The notes beneath the pieces are model-generated. The model was not told where the DNA came from. It ran no database searches and saw only the letters and a program-made list of their open reading frames with translations. From Bolinopsis microptera (taxonomy: Eukaryota > Ctenophora > Tentaculata > Lobata > Bolinopsidae): DNA of 64,000 nucleotides. Position 1 is the first letter of the stretch, and every line of letters starts with the position of its first letter. The stretch spans positions 1,650,312-1,714,311 of the forward strand of contig NC_087084.1 in NCBI RefSeq assembly GCF_026151205.1, read 5' to 3'. This document shows, piece by piece, positions 36,206-64,000 of the stretch. The position numbers and the translations under genes were made by a program.

Positions 36206-36384
36206 CTATACGTTTATATAACACATAAAATAACAAGTTGTTAGGAAGGCTCCGCTTGTTCGACAGTGCAACAAAAAGAAACAAATTGAAACTAACGTTT
36301 CCTCGGTGCATCTTCCTAGAATACAGTTTCCTGGTATTACTTTAGTGACATACGTTACCACTTCTTTCCTCCTCTCTTTGCAGG
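36206..36384 (-). CDS. CCP gene terminal exon 41 (proposed)
   Basis: 179 nt in the correct phase, open for 58 codons to TAG at 36206: CKERRKEVVTYVTKVIPGNC, ILGRCTEETL, VSICFFLLHC, then a short tail. Acceptor AATTTCAG. It lacks a recognisable domain, so this is the least certain exon; an alternative last exon could lie further left. Confidence 0.45.
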
Positions 36385-39300
36385 CTGAAATTATTTGTGC
36401 TTGTAAAAATGTTCCGGGTGATAAGTACAGGTAAAATCATTTTTTTTAAATATTTGATTGTGCTGCTGGGAATTAAGACAGACCAAATAAACGTACAATC
36501 GTTTTTATCAGTTAAGATTTAAAATTAAGAAACTAATCAGCTGAATATAAATAATTATCTTACAAGCACATGTCTTGTCCACATCACCCTCCCAGAGTCC
36601 ATCATCTCCACACTTGTAAACAAGCTTGTTCTGAAATAGTGTTTTGTTGAGAGATAATCATCATAATTATGCTAGTCATATCATTATTATCCTAGACATG
36701 TCAAAGCTAGACATGTCAATGCTAGGCATGTCAATGCTAGACATGTCAATGCTAGACATGTCAATGCTAGACATGTCAATGCTAGACATGTCAATGCTAG
36801 ACATGTCAATGCTAGACATGTCAATGCTAGACATGTCAATGCTAGACATGTCAATGCTAGACATGTCAATGCTAGACATTTCAATGCTAGACATGTCAAT
36901 GCTAGACATGTCAATGCTAGACATGTCAATGCTGCTAGACATATCATACTTATATTTGATCATACGGCTCTGATTTGCTGATTGTCAAATATTGGAAAGA
37001 GCGTGGTATAATTCAGGTATGGAAACTCTTATCTTATTTAAGAAAGTAAGAAGGTTTAATTTTTTTTTACTTTGTAAAATTATATTCTATATTCTACAAA
37101 AGTTGCACGTAGTCGGTGGAGAATGTTAGGACATGTTTTGCGGGGTCCCGTTGACGGACCAGTGTTTTTTAGACTTGGGCGTTGTTTTTAACTATCCCTT
37201 GTTTAGAACTTTGTTTTTAATAATAAATTCTACGAACTAAATTGTAACTGAGAAGTGAGTACTGTTAACTGGTAACAATTAACTAACCTTGTACGGCTCA
37301 CACACAAACTGCACTGTTTCCAGATAGTCGTACTATTAACTGGTAACAATTAACTAACCTTGTACGGCTCACACACAAACTGCACTGTTTCTAGATAGTC
37401 GTACTATTAACTGGTAACAATTAACTAACCTTGTACGGCTCACACACAAACTGCACTGTTTCCAGATAGTCGTACTATTAACTGGTAACAATTAACTAAC
37501 CTTGTACGGCTCACACACAAACTGCACTGTTTCCAGATAGTCGTACTATTTACTGGTAACAATTAACTAACCTTGTACGGCTCACACACAAACTGCACTG
37601 TTTCCAGATAGTCGTACTATTTACTGGTAACAATTAACTAACCTTGTACGGCTCACACACAAACTGCACTGTTTCCATAGGGCCTGTCGTGATATCATGG
37701 ATCGCTTAGGTTCCACCAGGATCTGGTAGTCCTCATAATTCTGCGGCCTCTATGTGTCGTCATCTCGCACAACTCCGAAAAACCGTTGTGAGTTTGGCAT
37801 GTGAAAATTTGCAGCCCTCCAGACATCGATTGGGTTAACGAGTTGTCGTACGTCACCTCAAGATCGGGTGACAGGGGGCTGAACAGGCCAGAACCCAATT
37901 GATTGGGTCGGAGGTCACGTGATTATGAGCCTGAGGTCACGTGACTATGACGTCACCAGAGCTGAGAGCTCGTTCTCCGTTTCCCGCTCTTTGGACCAGG
38001 TGAGCTTGCATGCTTGTGAAAGTGGGTGTAAGTACAGCTGTACTGTAAGTGTAGTTACATCCAATTACCCCTAATAGAACGAAGATTTATTTCTGACAGA
38101 AAGCTAGAAATTTACCAAAATATCGACTTTGTTCAAAATTTATTTTGATGACCACTCCTGACCTAAAATTGCACGAGAAATCGATTAAACTTGGTTTCAG
38201 AACTCAACAATGCTTCCTTATGCCTTAAAATCCATTTTTATCGATAAAATAAACATTTTGATCCTGTGGATTAATTAGTAACAGGTAACAAATGCACAGA
38301 AAAAACCATCGCACTTACATTGCATTCTTAACGGGTCGATTTCGAGTGACCAATAATCGTCGTGATGATATTTATACGTCATGCGTTCCTGATCATCATC
38401 AGCAATCAAGAGACAGGAGCGGCGATTGCTTTAAATCAACGGTTTACGTTATTTTTGTGAATTCGACCCCTGTTTTAACGGTTATCACACTTTGTAATTG
38501 AATGTATTGAGGATAGCTTTACAAATAAGAGGACCAGTAAATAAAATTGCCACAAGTGTTTCTCTCACTCACTTTCGATAAGATACAATGGAAATTCTTA
38601 CTTCCATAAGATTCGGAATTTTTTTAAACGCTGAAGAAAATCGGAATTTTATAAAATTTAATCACGCATCTTCTGGAACCCTAAGCTTCATAAGAACCCT
38701 TACAAGGCGAGGTTCATTGCAGGTGCCCGTTTTTGCGTTACGAAACAACTTAACGTCCAAGTTAACTGTTGTCTGAAACTTTTGAGGAAATACTTTAAGA
38801 AATACTGCGAGGCAATATACAACAACAGCGGTATAAACATGTTTTGGAGCATAGATTCCTCAAGTGAATTCCTTGAAGCTATCAAAAATAGCGATGTTTA
38901 TAATATACAAGTATATGATTTTACTACTCTTTATACCAGATTAGACTTGATTGAAGTAGAGAATATGATTAATGAAGTTGTTGATTTAATATTTTCAGAC
39001 CGTAATAGATATATTTGTATTTCTAAAAGAGACAGTAATACATGTTTCTTTTCCAATAAAACCTATGATTCTCATGCCTGCTTTAGTCAAGATGACCTAA
39101 AAGAGGCTGTTAAATTTATTATTTATAACACTTATGTCGTCTTCGGTGGGATTGTATTCATACAAACCAAGGGTATTCCTATGGGTGGAAATTCAAGTTC
39201 CCCTATAGCTGATCTCACTGTTGGCAAAAAGGAATTTAATTATATGAAACGTTTACTTCAGGAAAAGAAAATGGGATTAGCAAAGATATTATCCAATAAT

Positions 39301-42300
39301 AAACGATATGTTGACGATTAACCTTAATATGACTACAAGCACATACACAGTGGCCAATTTGGTAAGCTGTTTACAGCAGGGTTTTAGCGTAATAATCGAT
39401 CTTTTAGAATGTCCTCCTCCTCCTGGGTCTTCCTGATCCTCCTCCTCCCTCTCAGTCATCCTCCTCAGTCATCCTCCTCAGTCATCCTCCTCAGTCATCC
39501 TCCTCAGTCATCCTCCTCAGCCATCCTTCTCAGCCATCCTCCTCAGTACTCTTCAGTCTTCAGTACTCTTCAGTCCTCCTCCTTCTAGGCGGACATAGCT
39601 ATAGGCGGACATAGGCGGACATAGACGGACATAGGCGGACATATACGAACATTAATGGACACCTAAATTGCTAAATAAAATGTTCAATTTTTGCTGTTAT
39701 AGGGGGGATCATGTTTTTTGTCCGTTCGGTACCCTATATTTTCAAAACGGACAAAAAATAGAGCGGACAAAAATGGACAAAAACGGACAAAAATGGAAAT
39801 AACATTTAGATGCTTCCTCCTCCTACTCTTCCTCCTCCTCCTCCTGGGTCTTCCTGATCTTCCTCAGTCCTCTTCCTCCTCCCCTCCTCAGTCCTCCTCC
39901 TACTCTTCCTCCTCGTCCTCAGTCCTCCTCATCAGTCCTTAACTGTCCTCCTCCCCAGTCCTCCTCCTCCTCCTGAGTCCTCCTCCTTAAATTTAACACG
40001 ATTTTCCGCAAAAACGCGAATTAAATAGGTAATAATTTATTTAGTCTCTTGAGTCTTAAAACCACTCAGGGGTTAGACGGGTTCCTGCTAGTAGACTTTA
40101 ACCTGTCGACAATATTTCAGGAATGATTCCCGCAAGAAATTATATTCCTTCGTTTTGCTGTGATCCCTACTCTGGAACTAACTGCTGATGGAATTTCATA
40201 CGATTCGTTGATTTTTTGTAAAAATTGAACTTATATTTTATAAAATTCCGATATTCTTCAACGGTTGAAAAATTCCGAATCTTATGGTTAAGTAAGAATT
40301 TGCATTGTGTCTTATCGAAAGTGAGTAAGAGAAACACTTGTGACAATTTTATTTACTGGTCCTCTTATTTGTAAAGATATCCTCAATACATTCTATGACA
40401 AAGTGTGATAACTGTTAAAACAGGGGTCGAATTTACAAAAAATAACGTAAACCGTTGATTTAAAGCAATCGCCGCTCCTGTCTCTTGATTGCTGATGATG
40501 ATCAGGAACGCATGACGTATAAATATCATCACGACGATTATTGGTCACTCGAAATCGACCCGTTAAGAATGCAATGTAAGTGCGATGGTTTTTTCTGTGC
40601 ATTTGTTACCTGTTACTAATTAATCCACAGGATCAAAATGTTTATTGAATCGATAAAAATGGATTTTAAGGCATAAGGAAGCATTGTTGAGTTCTGAAAC
40701 CAAGTTTAATCGATTTCTCGTGCAATTTTAGGTCAGGAGTGGTCATCAAAATAAATTTTGAACAAAGTCGATATTTTGGTAAATTTCTAGCTTTCTGTCA
40801 GAAAATAAATCTTCGTTCTATTAGGGGTAATTGGATGTAACTACAGTACAGCTGTACTTACACCCACTTTCACAAGCATGCAAGCTCACCTGGTCCAAAG
40901 AGCGGGAAACGGAGAACGAGCTCTCAGCTCTGGTGACGTCATAGTCACGTGACCTCAGGCTCATAATCACGTGACCTCCGACCCAATCAATTGGGTTCTG
41001 GCCTGTTCAGCCCCCTGTCACCCGATCTTGAGGTGACGTACGACAACTCGTTAACCCAATCGATGTCTGGAGGGCTGCAAATGTTCACATGCCAAACTCA
41101 CAACGGTTTTTCGGAGTTGTGCGAGATGACGACACATAGAGGCCGCAGAATTATGAGGACTACCAGATCCTGGTGGAACCTAAGCGATCCATGATATCAC
41201 GACAGGCCCTACTGTTTCCAGATAGTTGTACTATTAACTAGTAACAATTAACTAACCTTGTACGGCTCACACACAAACTGCACTGTTTCCAGATAGTCGT
41301 ACTATTAACTGGTAACGATTAACTAACCTTGTACGGCTCACACACAAACTGCACTGTTTCCAGATAGTCGTACTATTAACTGGTAACAATTAACTAACCT
41401 TGTACGGCTCACACACAAACTGCACTGTTTCCAGATAGTCGTACTATTAACTAGTAACAATTAACTAACCTTGTACGGCTCACACACAAACTGCACTGTT
41501 TACAGATAGTCGTACTATTAACTAGTAACAATTAACTAACCTTGTACGGCTCACACACAAACTGCACTGTTTACAGATAGTCGTACTATTAACTGGTAAC
41601 AATTAACTAACCTTGTACGGCTCACACACAAACTGCACTGTTTCCAGATAGTCGTACTATTTACTGGTAACAATTAACTAACCTTGTACGGCTCACACAC
41701 AAACTGCACTGTTTCCAGATAGTCGTACTATTAACTAGTAACAATTAACTAACCTTGTACGGCTCACACACAAACTGCACTGTTTCCAGATAGTCGTACT
41801 ATTAACTAGTAACAATTAACTAACCTTGTACGGCTCAAACACAAACTGCACTGTTTCCAGATAGTCGTACTATTAACTGGTAACAATTAACTAACCTTGT
41901 ACGGCTCACACACAAACTGCACTGTTTCTAGATAGTCGTACTATTAACTGGTAACAATTAACTAACCTTGTACGGCTCACACACAAACTGCACTGTTTCC
42001 AGATAGTCGTACTATTAACTGGTAACAATTAACTAACCTTGTACGGCTCACACACAAACTGCACTGTTTCCAGATAGTCGTACTATTAACTGGTAACAAT
42101 TAACTAACCTTGTACGGCTCACACACAAACTGCACTGTTTCCAGATAGTCGTACTATTTACTGGTAACAATTAACTAACCTTGTACGGCTCACACACAAA
42201 CTGCACTGTTTCCAGATAGTCGTACTATTAACTGGTAACGATTAACTAACCTTGTACGGCTCACACACAAACTGCACTGTTTCCAGATAGTCGTACTATT

Positions 42301-45300
42301 TACTGGTAACAATTAACTAACCTTGTACGGCTCACACACAAACTGCACTGTTTCCAGATAGTCGTACTATTAACTAGTAACAATTAACTAACCTTGTACG
42401 GCTCACACACAAACTGCACTGTTTCCAGATAGTCGTACTATTAACTAGTAACAATTAACTAACCTTGTACGGCTCAAACACAAACTGCACTGTTTCCAGA
42501 TAGTCGTACTATTAACTGGTAACAATTAACTAACCTTGTACGGCTCACACACAAACTGCACTGTTTCTAGATAGTCGTACTATTAACTGGTAACAATTAA
42601 CTAACCTTGTACGGCTCACACACAAACTGCACTGTTTCCAGATAGTCGTACTATTAACTGGTAACAATTAACTAACCTTGTACGGCTCACACACAAACTG
42701 CACTGTTTCCAGATAGTCGTACTATTAACTGGTAACAATTAACTAACCTTGTACGGCTCACACACAAACTGCACTGTTTCCAGATAGTCGTACTATTTAC
42801 TGGTAACAATTAACTAACCTTGTACGGCTCACACACAAACTGCACTGTTTCCAGATAGTCGTACTATTAACTGGTAACGATTAACTAACCTTGTACGGCT
42901 CACACACAAACTGCACTGTTTCCAGATAGTCGTACTATTTACTGGTAACAATTAACTAACCTTGTACGGCTCACACACAAACTGCACTGTTTCCAGATAG
43001 TCGTACTATTTACTGGTAACAATTAACTAACCTTGTACGGCTCACACACAAACTGCACTGTTTCCAGATAGTCGTACTATTTACTGGTAACAATTAACTA
43101 ACCTTGTACGGCTCACACACAAACTGCACTGTTTCCAGATAGTCGTACTATTTACTGGTAACGATTAACTAACCTTGTACGGCTCACACACAAACTGCAC
43201 TGTTTCCAGATAGTCGTACTGTTAACTGGTAACGATTAACTAACCTTGTACGGCTCACACACAAACTGCACTGTTTCCAGATAGTCGTACTATTAACTGG
43301 TAACAATTAACTAACCTTGTACGGCTCACACACAAACTGCACTGTTTCCAGATAGTCGTACTATTAACTGGTAACAATTAACTAACCTTGTACGGCTCAC
43401 ACACAAACTGCACTGTTTCCAGATAGTCGTACTATTAACTGGTAACAATTAACTAACCTTGTACGGCTCACACACAAACTGCACTGTTTCCAGATAGTCG
43501 TACTATTAACTGGTAACAATTAACTAACCTTGTACGGCTCACACACAAACTGCACTGTTTCCAGATAGTCGTACTATTAACTGGTAACAATTAACTAACC
43601 TTGTACGGCTCACACACAAACTGCACTGTTTCCAGATAGTCGTACTATTAACTGGTAACAATTAACTAACCTTGTACGGCTCACACACAAACTGCACTGT
43701 TTCCAGATAGTCGTACTATTAACTAATAACAATTAACTAACCTTGTACGGCTCACACACAAACTGCACTGTTTCCAGATAGTCGTACTATTAACTGGTAA
43801 CAATTAACTAACCTTGTACGGCTCACACACAAACTGCACTGTTTCCAGATAGTCGTACTATTAACTGGTAACAATTAACTAACCTTGTACGGCTCACACA
43901 CAAACTGCACTGTTTCCAGATAGTCGTACTATTAACTGGTAACAATTAACTAACCTTGTACGGCTCACACACAAACTGCACTGTTTCCAGATAGTCGTAC
44001 TCTGCCTTGTCAGTTCCTGTTATTCTACTTCCTTCAGGAACTCTTCTTTTACATCTCACTCCTGTGAGAGAGATAACAAATAATATTAAATGATAACATC
44101 TAAAAGTAAGCTATAACATAAGTATCCATATTCCGTGCACACTTTGAAACCATTTATTTATTTATCTACGATATTATGTTTTTTTGTTTGGTTGAATAAC
44201 TTTCCGTTAACTGATTGGGATCTGACACATGTAATTTTGTAATGATCTTTCTAATTTCTAATTTCTAATTTCTAATTTCTAATTTCTAAATTTCTAATTT
44301 CTAATTTCTATAAAACACGAATGAACTATTTAGAAAACGTAAGACTGTATCGAATAGAAAAATCCATAAACAGATAAACGAGTTCATTATTTGCCAGTTT
44401 ACTCTTCCGTAGAAAAACTACCATTGAATTTTGAAAGTTCTCCAAGTATTTGAAATCCAAATATCAACATTGAATATTGCAGCTTAAAGGTGTCTTAAAA
44501 CAATGGAAATATGTGTGGTGATCTACTAACGTTCACATTTTGGAGAAATCCCATCCCATTCTCCACTTTCAAGGCATGTTCGGGTATTCCGACCTTCTGG
44601 TACCATCTTATAGCCTGGATTACACATATACTGCACCGACCTGGTAAAATGGTTTTATCACTTCAACAGCTCCTTTAAGGTAATAATTATATGTCTAATA
44701 TCCACCTGCAACCAAAAATATTAAAAGGCCGTTATTTTGAATCATTTAAATATTTTAAATCTTTGCTTTAAGATTATTTTAAACTCACGTTCCCACCACG
44801 TTCTCATCAGCAGTCTCTATAATTCCGTTAAGAAGAGATAGTACGGGACAGGAGACACATTTACACTCGGGTGGGGCATATGTCCACTGTTTGTTGTTTG
44901 TGCACGTTCTTATATCTTCCCCCATCAGGTGGTACCTGGGGGTTATTACTTAGTAATACTACCTTACCGGACTTTATTAAACCTGGGGGTTGTTACTTAG
45001 TAATACTACCTTACCGGAATTTATTAAACCTGGGGGTTGTTACTTAGTAATACTACTTTACCGGAATTTATTAAACGGAGAGATTAATTGCGTCCAATAA
45101 TGAACAACAACTAAATCTAAATCACATGAAAACAGCGTTGGAGGCCCTAGAGTTCATATTGAACAACAACTAAATCTAAATCACATGAAAACAGCGTTGG
45201 AGGCCCTAGAGTTCACATTGAACAACAACTAAATCTAAATCACATAAAAACAGCGTTGGAGGCCCTAGAGTTCATTGAACAACAACTAAATCTAAATCAC

Positions 45301-48300
45301 ACGAAAACAGCGTTGGAGGCCCTAGAGTTCATAATGAACAACAACTAAATCTAAATCACACGAAAACAGCGTTGGAGGCCCTAGAGTTCGTTGAACAACA
45401 TTTGAAACCAGCGCTGACCTGTCATCCTTGCACTTGTACTGCACTGCCGCCCCCGGAGTGTCAGCACCCCCCTCTAACCCACCACTAATCTGAGTGACAC
45501 TGCCGTACAGGATATCCCCCACATTGCCACAGTGTTTCACTTTGCAGGAGGTGGGCCCCGGCCCGCTCCACTGGGAGCCGTTCAGACAGCGCCTCACAGG
45601 GTCACCGTACAACTCGTACCCTTCATCACACACGTAGTGTACTTGCTGACCTGAAGTGTTGTTTAGTGTGTTGTTACTTTATTGTTGTACTTTCTGCTGC
45701 TACTTTGTGCGATTTTCAAAAGGATAGAGTGTAGTTTTATAACTAGAGTGTAGTTTTATAACTAGAATTTAGTTTAGGTCTTCTCACTGGTACCAGCAAA
45801 TAAGAAAATAACAGTAATTTCTGAATTCTGTGTATCGAGGTTAATATTTAAATACCAAATAATATAAAAGTATTCCTACTCTTAACTTTGTTATAATACC
45901 CCATTACCCTGTGGCCGTCCATTAACCTACCGCCATAAGTGTATTTAGTGTCAGCATTAGCGACCTCCTCCAACACAGGGCACACTTGCTCCACACACAG
46001 AGGGAACTTGTTGTCCCACTCTTCATCCTCACCACACCTCAACACGGCCTGACCCGTCAGAGCGTAGCTCTCGTCACATTTAAACGTTACAGAGCTCCCG
46101 CACTCGTACTTTACTCGTATTGTGTTTGCTGTGAGTCTACCGTTACCTACTGCGTGATCAGGCTTACTGCACTGCTTCACTGAGAGATGGGGGGTTTTTA
46201 TAGAAATAGTATTTGAAGTAATAGTGAGGATTGAAAAGGTTGATTATCATGATATTTCGGTCGAGGATCACCCGAAGGCAAAAGTAAGTATGACACAAGC
46301 TTGAGGAATAAAAAAGAAAAACTCTCATTTTGTTACAGACTGACTATAAATATAGAACTTGTATATTGACTACATACCTTCACACTCAGTAGGTTTAGGA
46401 GGACTCCACCTGCCGTCTATACACTGCAGTATCTCCGCTCCAGGGTTAGTCGGACCATAACAAGGATCACACTCTATTCTGCGCAGAATGTCTGATTCCT
46501 TGACTATCCTCCCGTGGGTAACGTTTGCAAGGGGCTCACACTCGCTGTGTTCACATCTTGGGACGTCTTCCCTCCAGGTTCCATCTTGCTGGCAGGATAT
46601 TATCATGCTGCCAACTAGTTCCCAGCCTGAGGAATGCTTACTGTCAGCAGTAGTATTTGGGTAGTTTATAATAAATCAACCATCATTAAAGGATAATGTT
46701 CTGGTCCCCTAGTCCTACTTGAATTTATCCATTTACCTTTTGAAAAAAATATAGTGAAAGGTTACGAATCGAGGGCAGCCGGCAGGGGGGGGGGGTGGGT
46801 TTGGTTCCTAGATTGAACCAAATTTTTTAGCACATTTTTTTTTAGCACAAACACTCGAATTTTATAAACTTAACTGCAAGTAAAATTACACATCTTACCA
46901 TCTTCACACTCATATTCTATCTCAGTGTACGGTCTGTATTTGCCGTCCGTAGCAGCAGGATCTGGATAAGTTGTAGTTTTCATGTGTTGAGCTACTTCCG
47001 GGTGGGGGCAGGTTACTTCCTCACAGGTAGGGATAACTGTGTCATACTTACTGCTGCTCGTGCACTTCAGTTGTTTGTCTCCTACTAGTTTGTATCTGGT
47101 ACAGTGAGCATGTGAGTAAAAGGTAGTTTGATATATTGTCATGTAAGTAAAGCGCAAAATAATATAGAGCCATCTTTCAAAGTTGGCATCTTTGCTAGAG
47201 CCATAATGTTTTCGTTTGAACTGAAAATTAATAAAAGTCTTTAGCACAATGTCAAATAATGTTTGCACAAATGTCATGAATTCCTAAATAATACCGACTT
47301 ACCCTAAATCACACTCAAAGCTAACGGTTTCTCCACACTTGGGTATATCCTCGACATCATGACCACTTGTAATTCTTCCTGCAATATCATCCACTTAACC
47401 GTGTAATACAATTTGCAAGCCTACTTTGTAATAGCATACTATAGTGTCTATAGTACTGCAGTAATTTCTTCTGGTCAGACAATCTACACAACGTTTGAGC
47501 AACGTTTGATGCTCCATTAGAGATAGCGGGCAGATAACAAAGTATTGGATTGCAGAGTATTGAACCTTACGGTTAGAAATAGCAGGCAGATAACAAAGTA
47601 TTGGATTGCAAAGTATTGAACCTTACCGTTAGAGATAGCAGGCGGATAACAAAGTATTGGATTGCAAAATATTGAACCTTACCATTAGAAATAGCAGGCA
47701 GATAACAAAGTATTGGATTGCAAAGTATTGAACCTTACCGTTAGAGATAGCGGGCAGATAACAAAGTATTGGATTGCACGTGGGCTCTGGAGATGACCAA
47801 GTGACTCCTTTATTCCCATCAAATACACATTGTCTTATTTGTGCGTCTCCTCCCTGCAACTCAGAGCACGTGTTGCACTGGTAGGTAATGTTAGCTCCGT
47901 ATAGGACACCTTTACCCTGCTCTTGCAGTGAAGGGAACACTGCTCCGTTAGTGGGATCGTCCTGGGGTCTACAGGACATCTTCACACATTTAGGAGGTTG
48001 TGGGAACCATGCAGTCTTGTCACATCTTATCCAGGGAGTCCCCTCCATCTTGTACCCTTCCTCACACGTATACCAATACTGCTGGTTACAATCAGTATCC
48101 TCTAGGTTTATCTTAGCCTTCTTCATGTTAGCATGAGGAACAAGAGGGGGAGCCGGGCACTGCTTCCTGGCACATCCACTGTGAGGGTACTCCCAGGTTC
48201 CATCAGATTGGCAGAGTGCCTCCTCCGGCTGGGGGACGTGGAAACAGCGTCTCTGTCTGGGGTTTACTCCGCAGGTGTATTCTACCTGGTGTAGTGTAGT

Positions 48301-51300
48301 GTTAGTGTTAGTTAGACGTTAGTATAGTGTTAGTATAGTGTAAGTGTAGTGTAGTGTTATAATTCTACCTGGTGTAGTTATGTGTTAGTGTTAGTTATAC
48401 TAGTTAGTTATAGTGTTAGTATAGTGTAAGTGTAGTGTAGTGTTATAATTCTACCTGGTGTAGTTATGTGTTAGTGTTAGTTATACTAGTTAGTTATAGT
48501 GTTAGTATAGTGTTAGTGTAGTGTTAGTGTAGTGTTAGTGTAGTGTTAGTGTAGTGTTAGTATAGTGTTAGTATAGTGTAAGTGTAGTGTAGTGTTATAA
48601 TTCTACCTGGTGTAGTTATGCTGCTTTAGTCAGGTTTATTAGTATGGCGTCATTATAATATTTACAATAAAAAAGAGGTGCAGGTTTTATTGAAGTTGTT
48701 GTAGTTTGAATAGAACTCATGATAACTAAGTGATAACTCATTGATAACTCATTATATGAGTAGAACTCATGAACTAATGATAATTAAGTGTTATCTTACC
48801 TCGTACCCATATAGAGTATCGATATACTCAGCTACCAGCGGAAGACTGACAGAAATGTCTCCGCAATCGATCGCCACGCACTCCGGCTCCGTCCCTGACC
48901 ATTTCTCTCCGTCACATTTTCGTGTTACTGTTCGGGAACTGCAATATTTTTTTAAAAATTATAGAGGGTGTACATTTTTTGGTTCTTATTTTTTGTTACA
49001 TCTTATAACAAAAATGACACAACGCACGATAAGATAAAACGAAGAATATGTCACGACCAGATAACACACTCGATCAAGGTCAAGTTCCAATCTACAACCC
49101 AAACAAATGTCAGTAAAACAAATCTAACCTTGTAGTAGTAAAGTGGTAGCCGGTGTTACACTCGTACGTTACACTAGCCTCACACTGGAAGTTCTGAGAA
49201 CTTGTCATTCTGCCGTTAGCTGGTGTCCCTGGGTTGGAGCACCTCTTCTCTGAGGAAGATTAGGAAGAGTTAGGGAGATACTACACCTCTTCTCTGTTAA
49301 TATTAGGAAGAGTTAGGGAGATACTACACCTCTTCTCTGTTAATATTAGGAAGAGTTAGGGAGATACTACATTACCTCTCTGGGAGATTATTTAAAAGAC
49401 ATTTAAGAAGTAAAGGGATGAACTGAGATTTTTAAAATAAAGAGTTGGCACTGACCCTGACAGACAGGGAAACTTCCGTTCCAGTTCCCAGTAGCTTCGC
49501 ACTTTAGCACATGGAACCTTGGGTAGATGCTCTCTGTTTCTTTTACACTGTAGGACAATTTTATTATTGGGGGGTTATTAGGAGAGCTTCTGAGGGTTTT
49601 ATTCCTTTGTTTATACAGGGGGTGCTTTATAAGGGGGAGGGGGGGGTACAGGGGGGCTGTATAGAGGAGCGGTGCTGTACTGGAGGACGAAAGTGCAAAG
49701 AAACTGCTGCTAACTGCTGCTAACTGTTGCTAACTGCTGCTGACTGCTGCTAACTGCTGCTGACTGCTGCTAACTGCTGCTTACTGCTGCTACCTGCTGC
49801 TAACTGCTGCTAACTGCTGCTAACTGCTGCTAACTGCTGATAACTGCTGATAACTGCTGCTGACTGCTGCTAACTGCTGGTGACTGCTGCTAACTGCTGC
49901 TAACTGCTGCTAACTGCTGGTAACTGCTGCTAACTGCTGCTAACTGCTGGTGACTGCTGCTAACTGCTGCTAACTGCTGCTAACTGCTGGTAACTGCTGG
50001 TAACTGCTGGTAACTGCTGGTAACTGCTGGTAACTGCTGCTAACTGCTGCTAATTGCTGCTTACTGCTGCTAACTGCTGCTAACTGCTGCTAACTGCTGC
50101 TAACTGCTGCTGACTGCTGCTAACTGCTGCTAACTGCTGCTAACTGCTGCTAACTGCTGCTAACTGCTGCTGACTGCTGCTAACTGCTGCTAATTGCTGC
50201 TAACTGCTGCTAACTGCTGCTAACTGCTGCTAACTGCTGCTAGCAGCAGTTTTTTTGCACTTTAGTCTCCCTAGGGGGGGGGGGGGGGGTGTACAGGGGG
50301 TGTACAGGGGGCTGTATTACTAGCTCAACATAGTTAAAATCATTGGTAAGATTAGTTTTGTATTCTATGTGGAATTCGAAAACAATCTTCATCTGTTCAA
50401 TCTAACTTGAAATTTAATCAAACCCATGGAAATTGGAAGTGTTTAGTGTTTACCTTTCGTTTTTGAAGGCACTATTAAACTTGTAGCAATCATCACACTT
50501 GAACGTGACAACAGTACCGTACTCGTGTGTGAGATCAGGGAAGTGGGAGCGATAAGGTGAGGAGTTTATTGAGGTGCAGACTTTAACTAAGGGTGGAGGT
50601 TTCAGTTAGAGAACTGTGAAACAAAAATATTTAGATATCATTTTAACTATCACTAATCCGTTCATTTATTCGAGGTTACGTGTTGGCGAATGTATAAATT
50701 GATGAATCTGAAGCAATAAGAAAATTGAAACAATTATCATTCAAAAAACCAAGTTAAATATTCAGAAAGGGCTCCATTGGAGGGCTTCATTGGTTTTAGT
50801 AGGTTTCATATTTTTTTAAATAAATTTTTTAATTAAAAAAAAAAATAAGTAAATAAAATTTTAAAATTGTCTTACTTGAGCAGACAGGGTGTTTGCCGGT
50901 CCATTTTCCCCACTCAGTGCAGTTCCGGACCAAATCACCGTCCGTCAGGTAATACCCTTCATCACACTTGTAAACAGCCTGGGTTTTCAGTTTTAGGATA
51001 CACACAATACTTTCTCACTATTGATAGGCTAATTTTATTAATAACCGCTAAATATTGTCTTTCAGTGTTCAGGGAGAACAGTATATAGCTGGTGTACGCA
51101 TGACAAGGTCCCCCCTCCCCCCTCTCTTCCTACACCCCTGGTACGCATGACAAGGTCCCCCCCCCTCCCCCCCTTCCTACACCCCTGGTACGCATGACAA
51201 GGTCCCCCCCCCCTCCCCCTCTTCCTACACCCCTGGTACGCATGACAAGGTCCCCCCCCCTCCCCCTCTTCCTACACCCCTGGTACGCATGACAAGGTCC

Positions 51301-54300
51301 CCCCCTCCCCCTCTTCCTACACCCCTGGTACGCATGATAAGGTCCCCCCTCTTCCTACACCCCTGGTACGCATGATAAACAAGTTTACTGAAGAGAAGTT
51401 TAAAGTAAAAAACCTATTCCTTAAATAAACTAACCGCTCCATCACAAGTCCCATCAATACTGACAAGACTGCCGTGAGTAGGGGGACTAGGTGGGGCCTG
51501 ACACGTGATCCTCTCACAAGTGGGCGCTGTCTCGTTCCACATCCCTCTAGTACAGTCCCCAGGGTCCGGTACACACTTCCTTCTCTCACAGAGACACTCT
51601 GAGTCGTGACTGAAGGTGTAGCACCTGTCACATCTGTAACGCGCCATGTCCCCACACCCTCGTCCCGTTGTGTCTACTTGTCCGTGCTCTATTTCCGGAG
51701 CCTCCTCACATTGTCTCACTGAACATATTAAGTGGTGTTGTTAGATCTTTAGATAAGTGATAGTTGACCAATAGTTAGTCGGTTGTAAATCAACTAAATT
51801 ATTGTGGTATATTCACTATATGAGATAAGAGAAGAGAGCCATTTTAGGACGCGAGGAGAGTTAGGACTCGACGGACTACATTAAATCAATTCCCTCCTTA
51901 ACGTCCTCAATAAATGTAATAGACTGGACTACAATCTGTAGTGTACAATAGTTATAAACTATTGTGAAAATATTTTGTAACTATGACACACTCATAGTGA
52001 TCAACTTCTAAGTCTAACTCCTCCAATGTTTTCAATGACTTACAGTTCATTTTAGGCTCTTTTGTTGTCCAAGACCAAGATTTATCGTAGTTACATTGCG
52101 CTTCCATGATTCCATCCGTCGACTGAAAGACATCATTATTATAAAACAGGATCTTACCGACAAAAATGATTCATAAAAATACCTTAATGCAGTAAACTGT
52201 ACCCTTGAAACAGATTTTCCCAACATTTGTCGCATGCAGCTATATCTTTGATTTCGTATAATTCATGTATAATTAGCAAGCCCTGAAAGACAAGGCTTGC
52301 TAATTATCAAGTCATATAATATCTGAATTGCTATCTACAAATTATTGCTTTATTACATATCAAAAATGATTGTTCCAATTCGCTAAATTTGCTTTTCCCC
52401 CTAAACTAAAATCAAATAATATTATATATTAACAAATTAAGCTAATTTATGATTCAAGAATTAATAAAGAAACCATTGTCTCTTCAGCACATGACTCCTC
52501 GTAGTAGCACTCATCACACTCAAGCTCCTTCTTGAAGTTGCATTTATTCTCTCCTGCTTTGTAGGTACAGTGTGGTACAGCTGGCGGGGTGGCGCACCTC
52601 GACCCTGATAATTAATTAGTTTTTAGTTATTTTCAACTGTATTTTGATTCATTTTTTAAATACTTATTGCTTTGATGGGTTTTCTTCCTTCGATTTACTC
52701 GTATACCTTTTTAAGAGTTTCATTTATCAGGATATCCCAAAAATTATTATTTAAATTTCCAACTAAAATGAAGATACAGTTTTACTGAGGTATTTATTGG
52801 TGTGCTAACTAATTAATTAATTATAAAGAAAAAAATGAAAAAATACATGTTAAGAAAAAAGAAAAAAATATATATATATAAAAAAGTATCTCTTACTGTG
52901 GCAAGTAGGGAGGTGATGTGACCAGGTCTTGTTTGTCTGGCACGTGTGAATCTGGGACCTTGAACCGTCAGGGAGCTCATAACACTCGTCACATGTCACC
53001 TCCACCTGACCGTTCAGTTATATCAAGGAGAGGGAAATGAGTATAAATAAAACAATAATATTATTTTTTAAATTGTTTATTGGATAGTGAAACAACAGTC
53101 TAGCCTAGTCTCTTTGCTCCCAATATTATCATTTTTTTATTTATTTTGTATCTACCTTCCTATACTTTTAACATCATATCACACTTCCCCTCACACATTA
53201 ATGACCATATCAGACCTGTATCTAATGTATCTGGAATTTGACGTATTGAAATACCACTTTTGACTCTATATCCACAGTTATTCACCATGGATTTGTTTGT
53301 TATTAAATAGTTTTTCATAAATTTTTGAATTTAGATTAATTCGATGTAATGGGTCCAAGTTACTGCGGACATAGTTCACTATGTGTTTACCGTGTTTGGG
53401 TGCCAATCATATTTTACAGATGGGGCGACATTTTGAACGATTCTACTTTATATTCATCTATTGCTGTACTCTGTAAAATTTGAAAAGTATTTAATAACAA
53501 AAAATAATATAAAACGCTCTTTGAACAGTACTCACAGTGCTCTGACAATGAGCAGGGTTATCTAGACTGTACTCTTGAGGGGAGGTGTATTGAAGGTGCA
53601 TGGTCTCATCTATATCTCTGTAGGGGCAAGTCTTTACTGAAACGCATTGTGGTGGTCAGACCTTGTGTAGTTAGCAATTTAAATTTAAAACATCAAATTC
53701 GAGTTCATTTAAATGCAATGTTGCTGTGTATAATGTTTAACATTGATTTGTTTGTAATATATAAGTGATTTGCTTATTAACTTAAACTACTCACACGTGC
53801 AGGACTTGTCTCTGTTAGTCCACTCTCCTATCTCTCCTATATCTGACTGTTTCTTAACACACTGTTTTACGGGCGGGTTCTTTATTCCGTCCACTACTGC
53901 TCCATCCTGCAAATATATGCAAATATTTGACAATATGCACTATGCAGATATGCAAATATGCAAATATGCAAATATGCAAATATACAAATATACAAATATG
54001 CAAATATGCAAATATGCAAATATACCCTGCTTAGTTTCGGGATCAATATTTTATTAGGTCCCCTATATTGATGTCTTCACTAGTGAACTAACTAACCTCA
54101 TCGTTGTACTCAAAGCAAGGTCCGCAGATAGGATCTATCTCCTGACACACATAGTCTCTGTCACATGTGGCAAAGTTCTCTTTAACAGTCATCTCACCCA
54201 GTTCCTGTAGAACCGTTCTGGTCCCCTTTCTGTAAACCAACTGTGTACTCTTCTCCTCAGTTATTGGGTCCACCGGCTCCTCCAGGTGCTCGCAACAGAT

Positions 54301-57300
54301 AGCTGCGGTGTTGTCAACATGTTACCATATTAGGGCATCACGTGGTACAACATACACTACTTGCCTTGAAGTTTTAATTCTGTTCTACATTAGAATCTGC
54401 AATAAGTCTCAAATACATAATGAATAATTTCCCTAAACTTATGACCTCCCCCCGCCCTTACTACTCACGTTCACAGACAGGAGGGTTGGAGCTCCAGCCA
54501 GCAGTCCCCGTGTTGGTGTTTTGGTTACAAGTCAGAGTCTCACTTCCAACCAGTCTGTAGCAGGGATCACACTCGTATCGTACTGTACCTGTTAGGAGAC
54601 GTTGTTAGTCTACACATCATCTACATATGAACAGATACAAAGAGGAAGGGAAACTAAAAGTTAAAAATAAATAGACTAATATGAATCAGCGGATGATAAT
54701 TAATTAGCGGATAATTAGCGGATAATAGTTAATTCTCACCGCAAGTGCAAGCAGACTCCGGTTCCACTGTTTTAAAACTTCCGTTATCAATAGTGACAGG
54801 CTCGGAGCAGGTGATGGGGACGCACTTTGGAAGGTCCTTGTCCCAGAACTTAGTGGGAAGACATTGCAGGGTGTCTGTTATAACATCGGCACTGATCTTG
54901 TGACAGCAGTCACATTCCACATCTATCTGTGGAGATGTGTTGAAAGATAAAGATGTTGAGACAAAGAGACAAGAGTATCCAGATGTTTGAAGCAGCAGTG
55001 CGTTTAGAACAAAATGTTAAAGTGAGATGGACTTACAGGCTAAATATCTAAAAGTGAGATGAACTTACAGGCTAAATATTTAAAAGTGAGATGGACTTAC
55101 AGGCTAAATATCTAAAAGTGAGATGAACTTACAGGCTAAATATTTAAAAGTGAGATGGACTTACAGGCTAAATATCTAAAAGTGAGATGGACTTACAGGC
55201 TAAATATCTAAAAGTGAGATGAACTTACAGGCTAAATATTTAAAAGTGAGATGGACTTACAGGCTAAATATCTAAAAGTGAGATGAACTTACAGGCTAAA
55301 TATCTAAAAGTGAGATGAACTTACAGGCTAAATATCTAAAAGTGAGATGAACTTACAGGCTAAATATCTAAAAGTGAGATGGACTCAGAAACCAAAAATA
55401 TAAAAGTGAGATGGACTTACAGTTTGGTTGCACTTCTTTGTACTGTGTACTACAGTGTAGTGAAGGTTGTTTTCAGCTGGGATCTCAGGAACGTTACAAT
55501 CTTTTCCTGTTTAAAGTTTAGGTTAATTCTAATCAAGTCATGATTCTGATCAACGTTCTGTATTAAATGTTAGTGAGGATAGGTCATCGTAAACTGTAAT
55601 ATTTTAAAGTTTATCTTGTTTTACTCAGCAACTAAAACAATAGTGTATATTACACATATATATAATATGTTTATTGTGTAAGTAAAGTGTAAGTAAGTGT
55701 ATCTTATTTTACCTTTTGCTACTAAAGCAAATTAAACAATAAAATACTCACTGGTACACATTCTGTCGGTGTTGGTCCAGTAACCTTCCTTACTGTTACC
55801 CTTCTTGACACACTTCCTCGTGGGTGCAGAGTCGGACTGAAAACATACCAAGTTACTTTGTTACTACTAGTTAATGTAACATAACAAGTTAATGTACTTG
55901 TTTTAAACAATCAATGTTTTTGAAGTTTTCAACGTTCTTTACAATTCTGGTTTAGTTTGGATCCAGTTTCTTTTCGAGAGTATTCCTTTTAATGAGTTTA
56001 TTAAACCTCAAACAAAACTAAAGGTTGGAAAGTAAAGCAGCCGTTATGAAACAAGTAAAACAAGTAGCGTACTACTACTGCTATAAGTAGCTAATTATCA
56101 GTAACCTACCACATCCCCCTCTGTTCTGTACTCATAGCACTCGTCACACTCAGCTGCTACCTCCTGGCACACGTAGTTGTCTCCACAACCTGCCGGGTTA
56201 GCGCCGTGTGTGTAACGTACCCCCGTAGATATTACCTGCAGGTTTAAATCTTAATACTTTATAAAGTGTGTGTATAAATACGCTATAACTAATTAACTAT
56301 ATATAACTAATAATTTGAGGATGTTTGAGGGTGGGATCTGCAACAATACTTGTAATTGTATGACGGGATCAAAACGGGATCAAAACGGGATCAATACAAT
56401 TTTACACAAGAATACAATACTTGTATAGATTGGCGATTTTTATAATTCTGGTCGTTTCATTGTTTCCTTCGTTCATTAAAATTATTGAAATATTTGTAAA
56501 GGAGTAAATGTGACCTGGTAGTGTGGTTACTTACTCCTTTATAAGTAAGATTATTACCTGGTAGTGTGGTTACGTACTCCTTTATAAATATTGTTATTAC
56601 CTGGTAGTCCTCATCCTCGCTGGGTACGGGTAGTAGTGCTGGGCAGCAAATAGCTGAAACGGAATATCAGTCAGCTATGTGTAATCATAGTTTATTGTTA
56701 TAAATTTGTTGAATTTATAACAATAAACAATAAATTCAATTTTTTGTTTTATTCTAAACATTTCTTGTTTCATTGAATAATAAAATCAAAATATTTTAAA
56801 ATTAAATGTTAACCATATGCACATTTTGCAAAACTGATAAAATGATAAAACGTACGTTGACAAGAGGGCGGGGTGTTACATTTTACAAAACTGATAAAAT
56901 GATAAAACGTACGTTGACAGGATGGAGGGGTGTTGACCCAGCTCGTGAGACTGAACTCCAAATCAGGCTGAGTACAGATCACCTCCTCGTTGCCTACTAG
57001 TTCTGTGCACTCGTTACAAGTGTACTTTAACTGCGGAGATCAGGTGCCTGTCACTATTTGGTGGCCCATGTAATGACAGTAACAGGTTTTTTTTTCGAAC
57101 AAAAATAATTATTTTGTCATTATTTTCAAAATTGTTTGTTTAAATTATTTTCTCAAATATTACCTTTCCACCGCAGGATAAAGCTTCCTTAGTAACTGTG
57201 GCGTTAGTGACAACAGGGATCTCATCGTCCGCACATGCCATTACTGAAATTATGACCTGATTAGAAAATTTAAATTCGAGTTATATTTAATATATGATAC

Positions 57301-60300
57301 ACAAATTCAAAATCACACCATAAAAACATTGTTTTAAGGCTGACATATAATCAAATTATCTGGACATTGATCAACATGTTTAATAATTGTCATAAACAAT
57401 TTGAGCAATTTGAGGAATACTCAAGTAAGGTAATGTTGCCATGGTTACATGACCATTATAAGGTACTCACTTTGACAGACTGGAGGTAGTCCACTCCACT
57501 GGCCCTTAGGGTCTTTCTTAATGTCTTTAGGAACACAAGATCTCTCCAGGTCTCCACTCACGTGTCTGTAGCACTTGTCACACTCCCATCTGAAGTGTGT
57601 GAGTGTCAGTAATTTAATATATAAGTATATACATTCCCATCTGAACAGTAACATATTATAGAGTGGCGTTTATTACATAGTGAGGTAGTTTATTACTAGC
57701 AGGAACCCGTATAACCCTATTTTTTCATGCTGATTTGGAGGACATTAAAGCATTTGACCCATTCAAAAAAAGGTTCAGTAATTTATTATAGAGTGATGTT
57801 GAGGAGATAAGGATGACTGAACTCTGCTTAATCTAATGTAAATCCAATTAGAAAGGAGGTAAAGAAAGTGGTTGAACATAATAAACAGATCAAGAGAAAC
57901 TGAAGAAAGTGAACAGGTAAAAACACTTTACCTGAGTGTGTTAGGTTGTGTTACCTGAGTGAAGAAAGTGAACAGGTAAAAACACTCTACCTGAGTGTGT
58001 TAGGTTGTGTTACCTGAGTGAAGAAAGTGAACAGGTAAAACACTTTACCTGAGTGTGTTAGGTAGTGTTACCTGAGTGAAGAAAGTGAACAGGTAAAAAC
58101 ACTCTACCTGAGTGTGTTAGGTTGTGTTACCTGAGTGAAGAAAGTGAACAGGTAAAACACTTTACCTGAGTGTGTTAGGTTGTGTTACCTGAGTGAAGAA
58201 AGTGAACAGGTAAAAACACTCTACCTGAGTGTGTTAGGTTGTGTTACCTGAGTGAAGAAAGTGAACAGGTAAAACACTCTACCTGAGTGTGTTAGGTAGT
58301 GTTACCTGAGTGAAGAAAGTGAACAGGTAAAAACACTTTACCTGAGTGTGTTAGGTTGTGTTACCTGAGTGAAGAAAGTGAACAGGTAAAACACTTTACC
58401 TTAATGTGGTGGTGCAGTTGTACTCGTGGTCGTCGTTCACTAGATAAGCGTTAGAGACTGGCTCAGGAGCATCACATGTCATGTCTGGAAACGATACAGC
58501 ATGTTACCGTGGTTACAATATCACACACCACTTGGTACCAGTAAAAGTCCCATTATTTTAAACGCAGTGATTGTGGGTGCGCACTAAAGAATTCACCAGA
58601 CTATTTTCCTATAATCTAACAAGCTAACAGAACCATCAGTTACAGAGTGTTTCACATGAAATGTGTCTATTTTAAATTTGTTGAAAATACAGTAAGTTCT
58701 TACAAATGCAGCTAGGAGTGTGTGACAAATACTGCAAGTTCTTACAAATGCAGCTAGGGATGTGTGACTTACAAGTGCAGCTAGGGATGCAACTTATAAA
58801 TGCAGCTAGGGATGTGTGACGATGAAATAATGTAAGTTCTTACAAATGCAGCTAGGGATGTGTGACGATGAAATAAAGTAAGTTCTTACAAATGCAGCTA
58901 GGGATGTGTGAGGATGATATGTTCCACGTTCCATCACTCTGACACATCAACCTGTCTTTGTCACATACGTGATAACAATCTTTAGATACTGCCTGAGTAG
59001 AGGGAGGTTGTAAATATTCTACTAATTTAATGTAAATATTGTTAAAAAGGATTTTTAATAGCTATAAGATATATTGAATAGTAAAGCTATAAGATATATT
59101 TAAGAGAGTGAATAACATTCTATTCAAAGAACAGCGATGTCACTGTTAAAAGAGTAAATAACTTACCTCTACGTCCATTATATCACCACAGTAGAATGTG
59201 TCATCTCCAGAAACCCTCTTTCCGTCTACTGAACTCTCAAACTGGCAACCACCTGGTTATATATTGATTACTGTTTTAAACAACAACAAAAGATCCGAAA
59301 TTTTGTAAGAGTGTCCTTCAGTACACACTTATTTAAGTTAAATTATTATTGTTTCGTGTATAATTTCTGGGGTTAACTTCAGCTCAATATAATGACTTTT
59401 GAGTCTTATCTCACCATTATGAGTCTTATGAGGTGGTCCTAATTCACACAATATCAGGTTTCCTCTCAACCATAATACCAATCTCCTTACCTGGCCACTC
59501 TACATCATAGTTATATTTCCTCTTAACCATAATACCAATCTCCTTACCTGGCCACTCTACATCATAGTTATATTTCCTCTTAACCATAATACCAATCTCC
59601 TTACCTGGCCACTCTACATCATAGTTATATTTCCTCTTAACCATAATACCAATCTCCTTACCTGGCCACTCTACATCATAGTTATATTTCCTCTTAACCA
59701 TAATACCAATCTCCTTACCTGGCCACTCTACATCATAGTTGTATCTCCTAGAGAACTCCGGTTGTCTCCATGGACACGTCTTCCTAGAGCAGGTTGGTAT
59801 CTCGTGATCCCATTCACCAGAACCGTCACATGACAACGTGGCCTCTCCGTTCATTTCATAACATCCTGGGATAACTTTAATTTACATTACTTACCCAGAT
59901 AACCAATGGAATTGCTTAGCATTACTGAACTAAATTGCATGCTACATTTCAAATGTATAGAAATATAAAGAGATAATGTTAAACTAGATCCCCTTACCAT
60001 CATCGCACTCCAAAGTCACAACACAGTTACACTTGAAGAGATAATGTTAAACTAGATCCCCTTACCATCATCACACTCCAAAGTCACAACACAGTTACAC
60101 TTGAAGTATAAAGAGATAATGTTAAACTAGATCCCCTTACCATCATCACACTACAAAGTCACAACACAGTTACACTTGAAGTATAAAGAGATAATGTTAA
60201 ACTAGATCCCCTTACCATCATCACACTACAAAGTCACAACACAGTTGCACTTACCATCATCGCACTCCAAAGTCACAACACAGTTACACTTGAAGAGATA

Positions 60301-63300
60301 ATGTTAAATTAGGGCCCTTACCATCATCGCACTCCAAAGTCACAACACAGTTACACTTGAAGTCATTGCTACAAGTCTCCTCCACAACCCGGATGTTATC
60401 CCTCAACACCAGCTCAGGGCACTCCATCTTCACACACGTTATCTCCACCCCGTCATACACACCGTCCACGTGGGATAAAGGACAGGTCTGGTTACTCGCT
60501 ACTTGTGTGCAACTTCTTGTGTTGTCTCCGCCTTCTTGTCTGTAACAGGTGTTGCAGGTTGCGGTTGAGGCTTCTCCGCATTGTAGTGCTCCTGGGGGAG
60601 GGTGAGGTATTAGGCTGGGCCCTGGGGTGGGTATTAGGCTGGAGGAGGGTGGGTATTAGGCTGGGCCCTGGGGTGGGTATTAGGCTGGGGGAGGGTGGGT
60701 ATTAGGCTGGAGGAGGGTGGGTATTAGGCTGGGGGGAGGGTAGGTATTAGACTGGGCCCTGGGGTGGGTATTAGGCTGGAGGAGGGTGGGTATTAGGCTG
60801 GAGGAGGGTGGGTATTAGGCTGGAGGAGGGTGGGTATTAGGCTGGAGGAGGGTGGGTATTAGGCTGGAGGAGGGTGGGTATTAGGCTGGAGGAGGGTGGG
60901 TATTAGGCTGGAGGAGGGTGGGTATTATGCTGGAGGAGGGTGGGTATTAGGCTGGAGGAGGGTGGGTATTAGGCTGGAGGAGGGTGGGTATTAGGCTGGG
61001 CCCTGGGGTGGGTATTAGGCTGGAGGAGGGTGGGTATTAGGCTGGAGGAGGGTGGGTATTAGGCTGGAGGAGGGTGGGTATTAGGCTGGAGGAGGGTGGG
61101 TATTAGGCTGGGCCCTGGGGTGGGTATTAGGCTGGAGGAGGGTGGGTATTAGGCTGGAGGAGGGTGGGTATTAGGCTGGGGGGAGGGTGGGTATTAGGCT
61201 GGGCCCTGGGGTGGGTATTAGGCTGGAGGAGGGTGGGTATTAGGCTGGAGGAGGGTGGGTATTAGGCTGGGGGGAGGGTGGGTATTAGGCTGGGCCCTGG
61301 GTGGGTATTAGGCTGGAGGAGGGTTGGTATTAGGCTGGGCCCTGGGGTGGGTATTAGGCTGGGGGAGGGTGGGTATTAGGCTGGAGGAGGGTGGGTATTA
61401 GGCTGGAGGAGGGTGGGTATTAGGCTGGAGGAGGGTGGGTATTAGGCTGGAGGAGGGTGGGTATTAGGCTGGGGGGAGGGTGGGTATTAGGCTGGAGGAG
61501 GGTGGGTATTAGGCTGGAGGAGGGTGGGTATTAGGCTGGAGGAGGGTGGGTATTAGGCTGGGGGGAGGGTGGGTATTAGGCTGGGCCCTGGGGTGGGTAT
61601 TAGGCTGGAGGAGGGTGGGTATTAGGCTGGAGGAGGGTGGGTATTAGGCTGGAGGAGGGTGGGTATTAGGCTGGGGGAGGGTGGGTATTAGGCTGGAGGA
61701 GGGTGGGTATTAGGCGGGGCCCTGGGGTGGGTATTAGGCTGGAGGAGGGTGGGTATTAGGCTGGAGGAGGGTGGGTATTAGGCTGGGCCCTGGGGTGGGT
61801 ATTAGGCTGGAGGAGGGTGGGTATTAGGCTGGAGGAGGGTGGGTATTAGGCTGGAGGAGGGTGGGTATTAGGCTGGAGGAGGGTGGGTATTAGGCTGGGG
61901 GAGGGTGGGTATTAGGCTGGGCCCTGGGGTGGGTATTAGGCTGGAGGAGGGTGGGTATTAGGCTGGAGGAGGGTGGGTATTAGGTTGGAGGAGGGTGGGT
62001 ATTAGGCTGGGGGAGGGTGGGTATTAGGCTGGAGGAGGGTGGGTATTAGGCTGGGCCCTGGGGTGGGTATTAGGCTGGAGGAGGGTGGGTATTAGGCTGG
62101 AGGAGGGTGGGTATTAGGCTGGAGGAGGGTGGGTATTAGGCTGGAGGAGGGTGGGTATTAGGCTGGGCCCTGGGGTGGGTATTAGGCTGGAGGAGGGTGG
62201 GTATTAGGCTGGGGGAGGGTGGGTATTAGGCTGGGCCCTGGGGTGGGTATTAGGCTGGAGGAGGGTGGGTATTAGGCTGGAGGAGGGTGGGTATTAGGCT
62301 GGGGGGAGGGTGGGTATTAGGCTGGGCCCTGGGGTGGGGGTGGGTATAAGGCTGGGGGGAGGGTGGGTATTAGGCTGGGGGGGGGGAAGAGGGTGGGGGA
62401 GGGTGCAGCGGAGGGTGTAAGGAATATTTAGAAATAGGTGGAACACTTGTTTATTACGTTTATTTTTTACGGAACCTCTAGGGCAAACAAACAAACAAAC
62501 AAACAAACAAACCCCACCTTTTTTGTTAGTGATGAGAGCGTTGGGAACGTTTCTCTGTCTGCACATGATAGGGGCACATTGTGGCTCGCTGTTGCTCCAC
62601 ACTGTGGCTGTTCCGTTCCATTTGCACGTGCGCTCGCACGTACTCGTGCATGGGAAACTGCAGCTGTTACATTGCACGTGCAGTGTGTCTCCGCACTCCA
62701 GGATTTCTCCTGATAGATATTAATATTTTTGGGTCATTTTATAAAACATCTATATTTGTGGGTACCGTAAAATTCATTAAGCTACATATTATTGTATTTG
62801 TTAAATATTCAGCCTGTATAGTGTATATTTCCGGTTGCATTTAATAGGAATATATTGTTCCTAATGTTCCTAATGTTCCTAATGTTCCTAATGTTCCTAA
62901 TGTTCCTAATGTTCCTAATGTTCCTAATGTTCCTAATGTTCCTAATGTTCCTAATGTTCCTAATGTTCCTGCTGTTGCGCCTACCTTGAGAAACCTCAGC
63001 ACCATTAAACAGATAGTTCCCATCCTCGTACGATGTAACAGCAGGACACTTCCTCTTCACACATGTTGGTAGCTCACCAGACCAGCTACCGTCTGGCTGG
63101 CAGGTTCTTGTAGCGTTACCTTCAATCTGGTGGAGTCTATGTTATTACCATGGTTACTGTGTTACTGTGGTTACCAGTAACTGTGTTACTGGCAGGTTCT
63201 TGTAGCGTTACCTTCAATCTGGTGGAGTCTGTGTTATTACCATGGTTACTGAGGTTACCAGTAACTGTGTTGCTGGACACCGGTTGGGAGGTGAGCGATG

Positions 63301-64000: not shown

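Follow-up and report, generated by a model that had tools for sequence, protein, structure and literature searches.

Minisatellites across the exon borders of a ctenophore subtilase-CCP gene: duplication, coding constraint and likeness to amphioxus mirages

In one gene of the ctenophore Bolinopsis microptera, many minisatellites lie across exon-intron borders and repeat the splice site found there. Does this placement call for a duplication process tied to splicing, or would duplications that arise at random, and persist only where the protein is left intact, produce much the same pattern? The original prediction, made from a window of 64,000 nucleotides (C13:1,650,312-1,714,311; the assembly comprises 232 contigs and 264.65 Mb), had proposed either a mechanism tied to splice sites or selection that tolerates duplication only when splicing still works. 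Here, we weigh the two using a model of the whole gene, a second copy of the gene on the same contig, and a null model for the placement of duplicated units.

The gene and the arrays at its borders

The gene product combines a subtilase domain at the N-terminus with CCP/Sushi domains (one subtilase domain and 12 Sushi stretches matched by Pfam), and the CDS of 8334 nt is spread over 63 exons, with a single, terminal stop. Within the window, 41 exons (E0-E40; exon n of the original prediction is E(n-1) here) were marked on the minus strand by their GT-AG borders and form a stop-free model of 1955 codons; the last exon of the gene lies at 36025-36076. The 5' part, placed with the NCBI protein P0050 as guide, runs on to C13 about 1,726,304, and the subtilase domain is encoded outside the window. 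P0050 (2853 aa, named "sushi, von Willebrand factor type A, EGF and pentraxin domain-containing protein 1-like isoform") is identical to the model at 1955/1955 residues, save for one insertion of 76 residues, and agrees with it at the array junctions of the window except at E5. The JGI protein P0051 (2772 aa), from an 8851-bp contig that is probably a spliced transcript, shows 73% identity over aligned residues, and the Mnemiopsis protein P0052, which is without 41 residues around E35-E36, shows 72%.

Using Tandem Repeats Finder (TRF), we found 14 arrays in the window that repeat a splice site, at nine donors and five acceptors (Table 1). Sixteen such junctions had been listed originally; all nine donors and the acceptors of exons 3, 5, 29, 31 and 37 (in the original numbering) hold up, while the acceptors of exons 10 and 20 do not. 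At exon 20, an 8-bp array ends 8 nt short of the splice site, and at exon 10 TRF reports no array, a single degenerate extra copy being visible by eye. It had also been claimed that the arrays begin exactly on the exon border. This is not general: the arrays reach 0-47 nt into the exon, with exonic parts of 37, 31, 28, 9, 22, 8, 2, 40 and 47 nt at the donors of exons 5, 6, 8, 9, 12, 13, 16, 31 and 39, and of 46, 0, 10, 7 and 2 nt at the acceptors of exons 3, 5, 29, 31 and 37 (again in the original numbering). Counting both gene copies, only 3 of 17 independent junction arrays come within 2 nt of the border. These 17 events comprise 11 donors and 6 acceptors (12 donors once the E17 array of the other copy, described below, is reclassified); their units measure 22-92 bp, and in 7 of the 11 donor arrays the unit length is not a multiple of three.

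Table 1. Coordinates in the window of the exons and of the arrays that repeat a splice site (exons in the E numbering)
Feature	Positions	Strand	Remarks
In-window exons E0-E40 (41 of 63)	36297..64000	minus	gene model, P0050 and Pfam
92-bp unit x1.9, acceptor of E2	63081..63251	minus	46 nt exonic; one extra acceptor copy in the other gene copy too
22-bp unit x77, acceptor of E4	60592..62325	minus	0 nt exonic
75-bp array, donor of E4	59960..60358	minus	six junction-motif copies; one in the other gene copy
57-bp unit x5, donor of E5	59459..59749	minus	five in-frame donors, stop-free
46-bp array, donor of E7	58685..58917	minus	one junction copy in the other gene copy
59-bp unit x8.7, donor of E8	57901..58408	minus	one junction copy in the other gene copy
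57-bp unit x2, donor of E11	56821..56934	minus	one junction copy in the other gene copy
43-bp unit x2.2, donor of E12	56513..56608	minus	x4.4 in the other gene copy
32-bp unit x12.6, from 2 nt before the donor of E15	55019..55422	minus	one junction copy in the other gene copy
43-bp unit x3, acceptor of E28	49240..49371	minus	x6 in the other gene copy
86-bp unit x3, acceptor of E30	48279..48530	minus	TRF
56-bp unit x4.7, donor of E30	47517..47778	minus	x3.9 in the other gene copy
47-bp unit x3, acceptor of E36	44934..45076	minus	x4 in the other gene copy
71-bp unit x39, donor of E38	41211..44001	minus	TRF
Rest of the 71-bp array (5.9 units), cut off by the inserted element	37259..37677	minus	TRF

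Over the whole gene, 15 of 62 introns carry a junction-spanning array; one of these, at the donor of E4, was classed by hand, as a 114-bp TRF row spans the junction while the merged list shows the 75-bp row as internal. Numerous other arrays of the gene touch no exon border, and this richness in arrays by itself pushes up the number found at junctions. A scan for further copies of a 24-nt junction window (up to 4 mismatches), which is stricter than TRF, found extra copies at 7 of 62 donors and 3 of 62 acceptors here, and at 6 of 61 donors and 3 of 61 acceptors in the other gene copy. Two single extra copies outside the window, at the donor of intron u3 and the acceptor of intron u11 of this gene copy, were left uncounted. 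A further copy of the 24-nt window was present for 19/246 splice sites, 283/1230 random intronic points and 4/595 exon-interior points, the intronic control being uncollapsed and therefore inflated by long arrays.

A second gene copy with and without the arrays

A paralog lies on the minus strand at C13 about 1.492-1.535 Mb, about 190 kb from the gene of the window. The two copies differ at 213 of 5869 sites over 41 exons (3.6%), 1904 of 1955 residues are kept, and exon lengths are equal in all 62 exons compared (the last exon of the paralog was missed by the probe and seen by tblastn). The arrays do not share this constancy. At the donors of E4, E7, E8, E11 and E15, the junction is present in 6, 4, 9, 2 and 12 copies here versus one each in the paralog; likewise, the 22-bp array at the acceptor of E4 is absent from the paralog, whose intron measures 214 bp versus 1926 bp here. 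Conversely, the donors of E33, of u19 (in the 5' part) and of E17 are repeated in the paralog only. The E17 donor, single here, has ~45 further copies there, in poly-G-rich units of 43-46 bp (C13 about 1,514,200-1,516,400, minus strand); TRF rows had placed this array inside the intron and the junction-window scan recognised it, so that 10 of 61 paralog introns now count as carrying a junction array. Arrays are found in both copies at the donors of E5, E12, E30 and E38, at the acceptors of E28 and E36 and at one after intron u14, and the acceptor of E2 has one extra copy in both. The copy number is thus unstable between the gene copies, which are not alleles: 5 vs 12, 45 vs 139-161, 2-12 vs 1, and 1 vs ~46. 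The earlier suggestion that the arrays arose independently at each junction is borne out, as the units differ between junctions, and junctions repeated in one gene copy occur singly in its counterpart.

The largest array is that at the donor of E38. Its two pieces here contain 45 unit starts and 45 donor motifs, and in the paralog, where the intron measures 12.3 kb (C13 about 1,493,300-1,505,300, minus strand), it has 139-161 copies by two counts and 140 donor motifs per 139 units. The exonic part of the unit contains a stop in 2 of 45 units here and 7 of 139 in the paralog; a few stop-bearing units are expected if later units are non-coding. In the window, the array is interrupted at 37678-41211 by an element whose terminal arms are inverted copies of each other, identical (100%) over 370 nt and with more blocks at 99% and 94%. 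An ORF of this element on the plus strand (38662-39321) has no Pfam match at E 0.001 and contains motifs that resemble those of Penelope-like reverse transcriptases.

At the donor of E5, the 57-bp unit keeps the reading frame, giving 5 in-frame donors here and 12 in the paralog, and the run is open past the last donor. The insertion in P0050 consists of four extra units of 19 residues (76 residues), so that the annotated isoform uses the fifth donor; neither of the homologs P0051 and P0052 has an insertion at this border. The nine cluster members of P0050 may include isoforms that differ in length. By eye, the 57-bp duplication at the donor of E11 also appears to be in frame and stop-free, and there the annotated protein uses the first donor.

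Short introns, protected exons and the remaining excess

How many arrays would span a junction if duplications fell at random? In our null model, a unit of the observed length is placed uniformly over the introns and their borders, with each intron collapsed to the shorter of the two gene copies and its arrays cut to one unit (median 190 bp, range 89-436); the straddling share is then set by unit length and by the length of the intron before the array arose. Collapsing is a substantial correction: the 62 introns of this copy total 31,635 bp, inserted element included, while 61 collapsed introns total 12,509 bp. Rows with a period below 20 bp or a score below 80 and the arrays of the element inserted in intron 38 were dropped, and the 38-event lists also omit the 488-bp and 118-bp units; in the 40-event list, secondary rows within two expanded introns were taken as internal. 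The 75-bp array at the E4 donor was curated by hand as spanning, pre-array lengths were set for introns 4 and 38, and the two arrays of intron 24 (44 and 47 bp) were counted separately, although probably homologous. The P values given below shift with these choices.

For both gene copies together, 17 of 40 arrays span a junction versus 12.1 expected (P 0.05), and the 38-event list gives 17 versus 11.6 (P 0.037). With the E17 donor counted, 18 of 40 and 18 of 36 are observed versus 12.1 expected (P 0.025), whereas another coding gives 17-18 of 38 versus 12.9 (P 0.10-0.054). This copy alone has 15 of 26 versus 9.2 (P 0.013), the other copy alone 10 of 21 versus 6.9 (P 0.11). Less collapsed nulls return stronger values: with each copy's own introns and the intron-38 element kept, 15 of 26 versus 6.5 here (P 0.0003) and 10 of 21 versus 6.1 in the other copy (P 0.05), and with uncollapsed introns, 17-18 of 38 versus 7.8 (P 0.0005-0.0001). 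We judge these nulls to be worse, since DNA of the arrays or of the element enters them as if it had been intron from the start. An excess of about 1.4-fold over the geometric null nevertheless remains and is not zero, with P 0.02-0.10 for both copies together.

The strong part of the statistics is the absence of arrays that lie wholly within an exon. None was found at a score of at least 80, versus 10.3 of 38 expected (P(0)=5.5e-6; with uncollapsed introns, 6.7 expected and P(0) 0.0006); below this threshold, there is one weak exon-only array (22 bp x2, score 54). Together with the equal exon lengths and the stops in later units, this supports the earlier idea that selection tolerates duplication only with splicing intact.

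Explanations of the pattern

We suggest, with a probability of roughly 0.7, that the arrays are minisatellites of the mirage type known from amphioxus, and that random duplication together with selection on the coding sequence explains most of the pattern. Small tandem duplications, with units of ~20-90 bp, would arise at many positions in this minisatellite-rich gene. Those inside exons would be removed because they would alter the protein, while those within an intron or straddling one border would survive, as the same exon ends can still be spliced together, presumably by way of the first donor downstream of an exon and the last acceptor upstream of it. With collapsed introns so short for units of this size, geometry alone would place about one in three tolerated duplications across a border, and the duplicates would later gain and lose units, probably by slippage or unequal exchange. 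In the donor arrays with out-of-frame units (7/11), splicing from a later donor would put the following exons out of frame; that the first donor should be picked from tens of closely similar ones would be in keeping with exon definition. The proposed preference for exon-proximal sites has a counter-example in the annotation, namely the distal donor that P0050 uses at E5. Where the unit is a multiple of three and stop-free, as it is there, downstream donors would be usable without loss of frame, and one such protein is annotated.

There is no need to invoke a mechanism tied to splice sites, as the geometric null alone yields ~12-13 of the 17-18 junction arrays. Nevertheless, a duplication process coupled to splice sites, or to splicing during transcription (through breaks at junctions or templated repair, for example), could favour exon borders and account for the remaining excess, which is most marked in this copy. 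The 3 of 17 units that start within 2 nt of a border and the skew of acceptor units towards small exonic parts (KS p 0.02, n=6) point the same way. However, the exonic fraction of donor units is indistinguishable from uniform (KS p 0.27, n=11), their starts being spread across the exon end, the breakpoints of the two-copy arrays (E11, E33 and u19) lie 11-32 nt inside the exon, and the excess weakens to P 0.05-0.10 under other codings and to 0.11 in the second copy. On balance, we consider such a mechanism unlikely. A narrower form of the idea, to which we would give an equally small chance, is that the residual excess is real and stems from border-favouring duplication during or after splicing, with the E5 array as a by-product turned into a coding repeat set by splicing; if true, the gene would undergo splice-site-coupled mutation and carry a repeat with 5 possible lengths here and 12 in the paralog.

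Arrays sampled elsewhere, although few, also fail to support a link to splice sites. The gene's own arrays (n=28) are enriched in splice motifs (donor p 0.049, acceptor p 0.005), which is necessarily so if arrays span junctions. No such enrichment was seen in 12 arrays from eight 10-kb stretches, one on each of C1-C8 at the fixed position of 3.0 Mb, in the upstream region (20 arrays), in myosin regions (8) or in positions 1-36000 of the window (9). In aligned myosin introns, 0 of 35 carry a junction-spanning array versus 15 of 62 in the studied gene, a small sample in which the third locus has a few artefact introns (exons of 6-20 nt) and the second alignment is imperfect. These introns (15+9+11) come from three of six fetched loci aligned with P0180, P0172 and Mnemiopsis P0173; P0179 repeats the first locus and was left uncounted, and loci L032-L034 entered the TRF analysis only. 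One myosin array (48 bp x2) begins 1 nt inside a donor, its second copy, by reading, being without GT.

Two further features were observed in the first part of the window. A long single ORF with ankyrin repeats at 26711-29755 (plus strand), whose named matches are ctenophore proteins, contains a 99-bp coding tandem repeat at 26904-27408 and a part that looks multi-spanning. A 7-bp satellite, TATTCAG x121, occupies 16786-17636, with long open frames in three plus-strand frames.

Could selection instead maintain the arrays for a function, namely as ladders of alternative splice sites by which repeat number or the efficiency of splicing is tuned? The E5 donors fit this, being all in frame and stop-free in both copies, with the last one used by the annotated protein here, as does the near-perfect ratio of donor motifs to units in the 71-bp array. 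High identity among the units of an array is, however, expected from homogenisation alone. Moreover, most donor arrays (7/11) have units that are not multiples of three, the junctions of E4, E7, E8, E11 and E15 are single in the paralog with the same exons and frame, and P0051 and P0052 do without the E5 insertion. We thus regard a function of this kind as improbable.

Intron gain, in which tandem duplication of exonic sequence containing AGGT creates a new intron (the Rogers model), is very unlikely even though many units carry the AG|GT copies that it needs, since the array-free copy has its intron at the same place in the lineage-specific cases and exon lengths are unchanged (62/62). It is just as hard to credit that assembly has collapsed or falsely expanded the repeats to produce the pattern: long near-identical arrays (71 bp, 139-161 copies) and poly-G-rich units are hard to assemble and their copy numbers may be wrong, but substitutions differ among units, the same class of array occurs at shared junctions of two diverged gene copies, and several arrays are only two copies long in unique flanks.

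Relation to known boundary-spanning repeats

Contrary to the original view that no standard description of such arrays exists, excerpts of two reports on amphioxus (PMC3087553, PMC3902484) describe tandem repeats that span exon-intron boundaries, termed mirages, in Adh3, the globins BflGb6 and BflGb9, TnC and PGBD5. According to these excerpts, mirages occur at 5' and 3' boundaries, with many units carrying AG/GT signals, units of 10-160 bp and unstable copy number; on the basis of RT-PCR, regular splicing was reported to be unaffected, and somatic length instability is reported for the Adh3 mirage. The ctenophore arrays are alike in that they span and repeat the boundary, at donors and acceptors, with comparable units and copy numbers that vary between gene copies. 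They are unlike in belonging to another phylum, in offering paired gene copies with and without the array, and in including one in-frame array annotated as exonised. They also affect 15 of 62 introns of a single gene, whereas the amphioxus excerpts mention a single boundary for each of the two globin genes and two exons for PGBD5, and at their extreme they comprise 139-161 tandem donors.

Two other systems invite comparison. Intron gain by tandem duplication with AG|GT, as outlined in parts of PMC3443670 and PMC4974935 (the latter citing a 24-bp case in fission yeast), similarly leaves duplicate splice sites, but the introns studied here are already in place in the array-free copy and differ by growth alone, and no new intron position was seen. 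Human segmental duplications, as portrayed in excerpts of PMC2812944, contain variable internal tandem repeats, some at exon-intron boundaries, with transcripts often retaining the repeat in an exon; minisatellite expansion in recent paralogs is thus common to both cases, while about half of the human repeats lie in coding sequence and none in the ctenophore gene is wholly exonic at the score used. As to other ctenophores, a part of the Hormiphora genome report, which makes no mention of junctions, gives 13% of that genome in TRF repeats (PMC8527503), and among the open-access literature matches listed, we found no ctenophore report of mirage minisatellites.

The arrays thus belong with the amphioxus mirages, and what is new is the phylum, the scale and the paired states; mirage minisatellites are extended from lancelets to a ctenophore. 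The striking bias towards junctions mostly shrinks once the null model takes account of how short the introns are and how exons are protected. At a given junction, one donor in one gene copy can face 2 to ~46 in tandem in its near-identical counterpart, and these natural pairs lend themselves to tests of how an animal spliceosome selects between almost identical sites.
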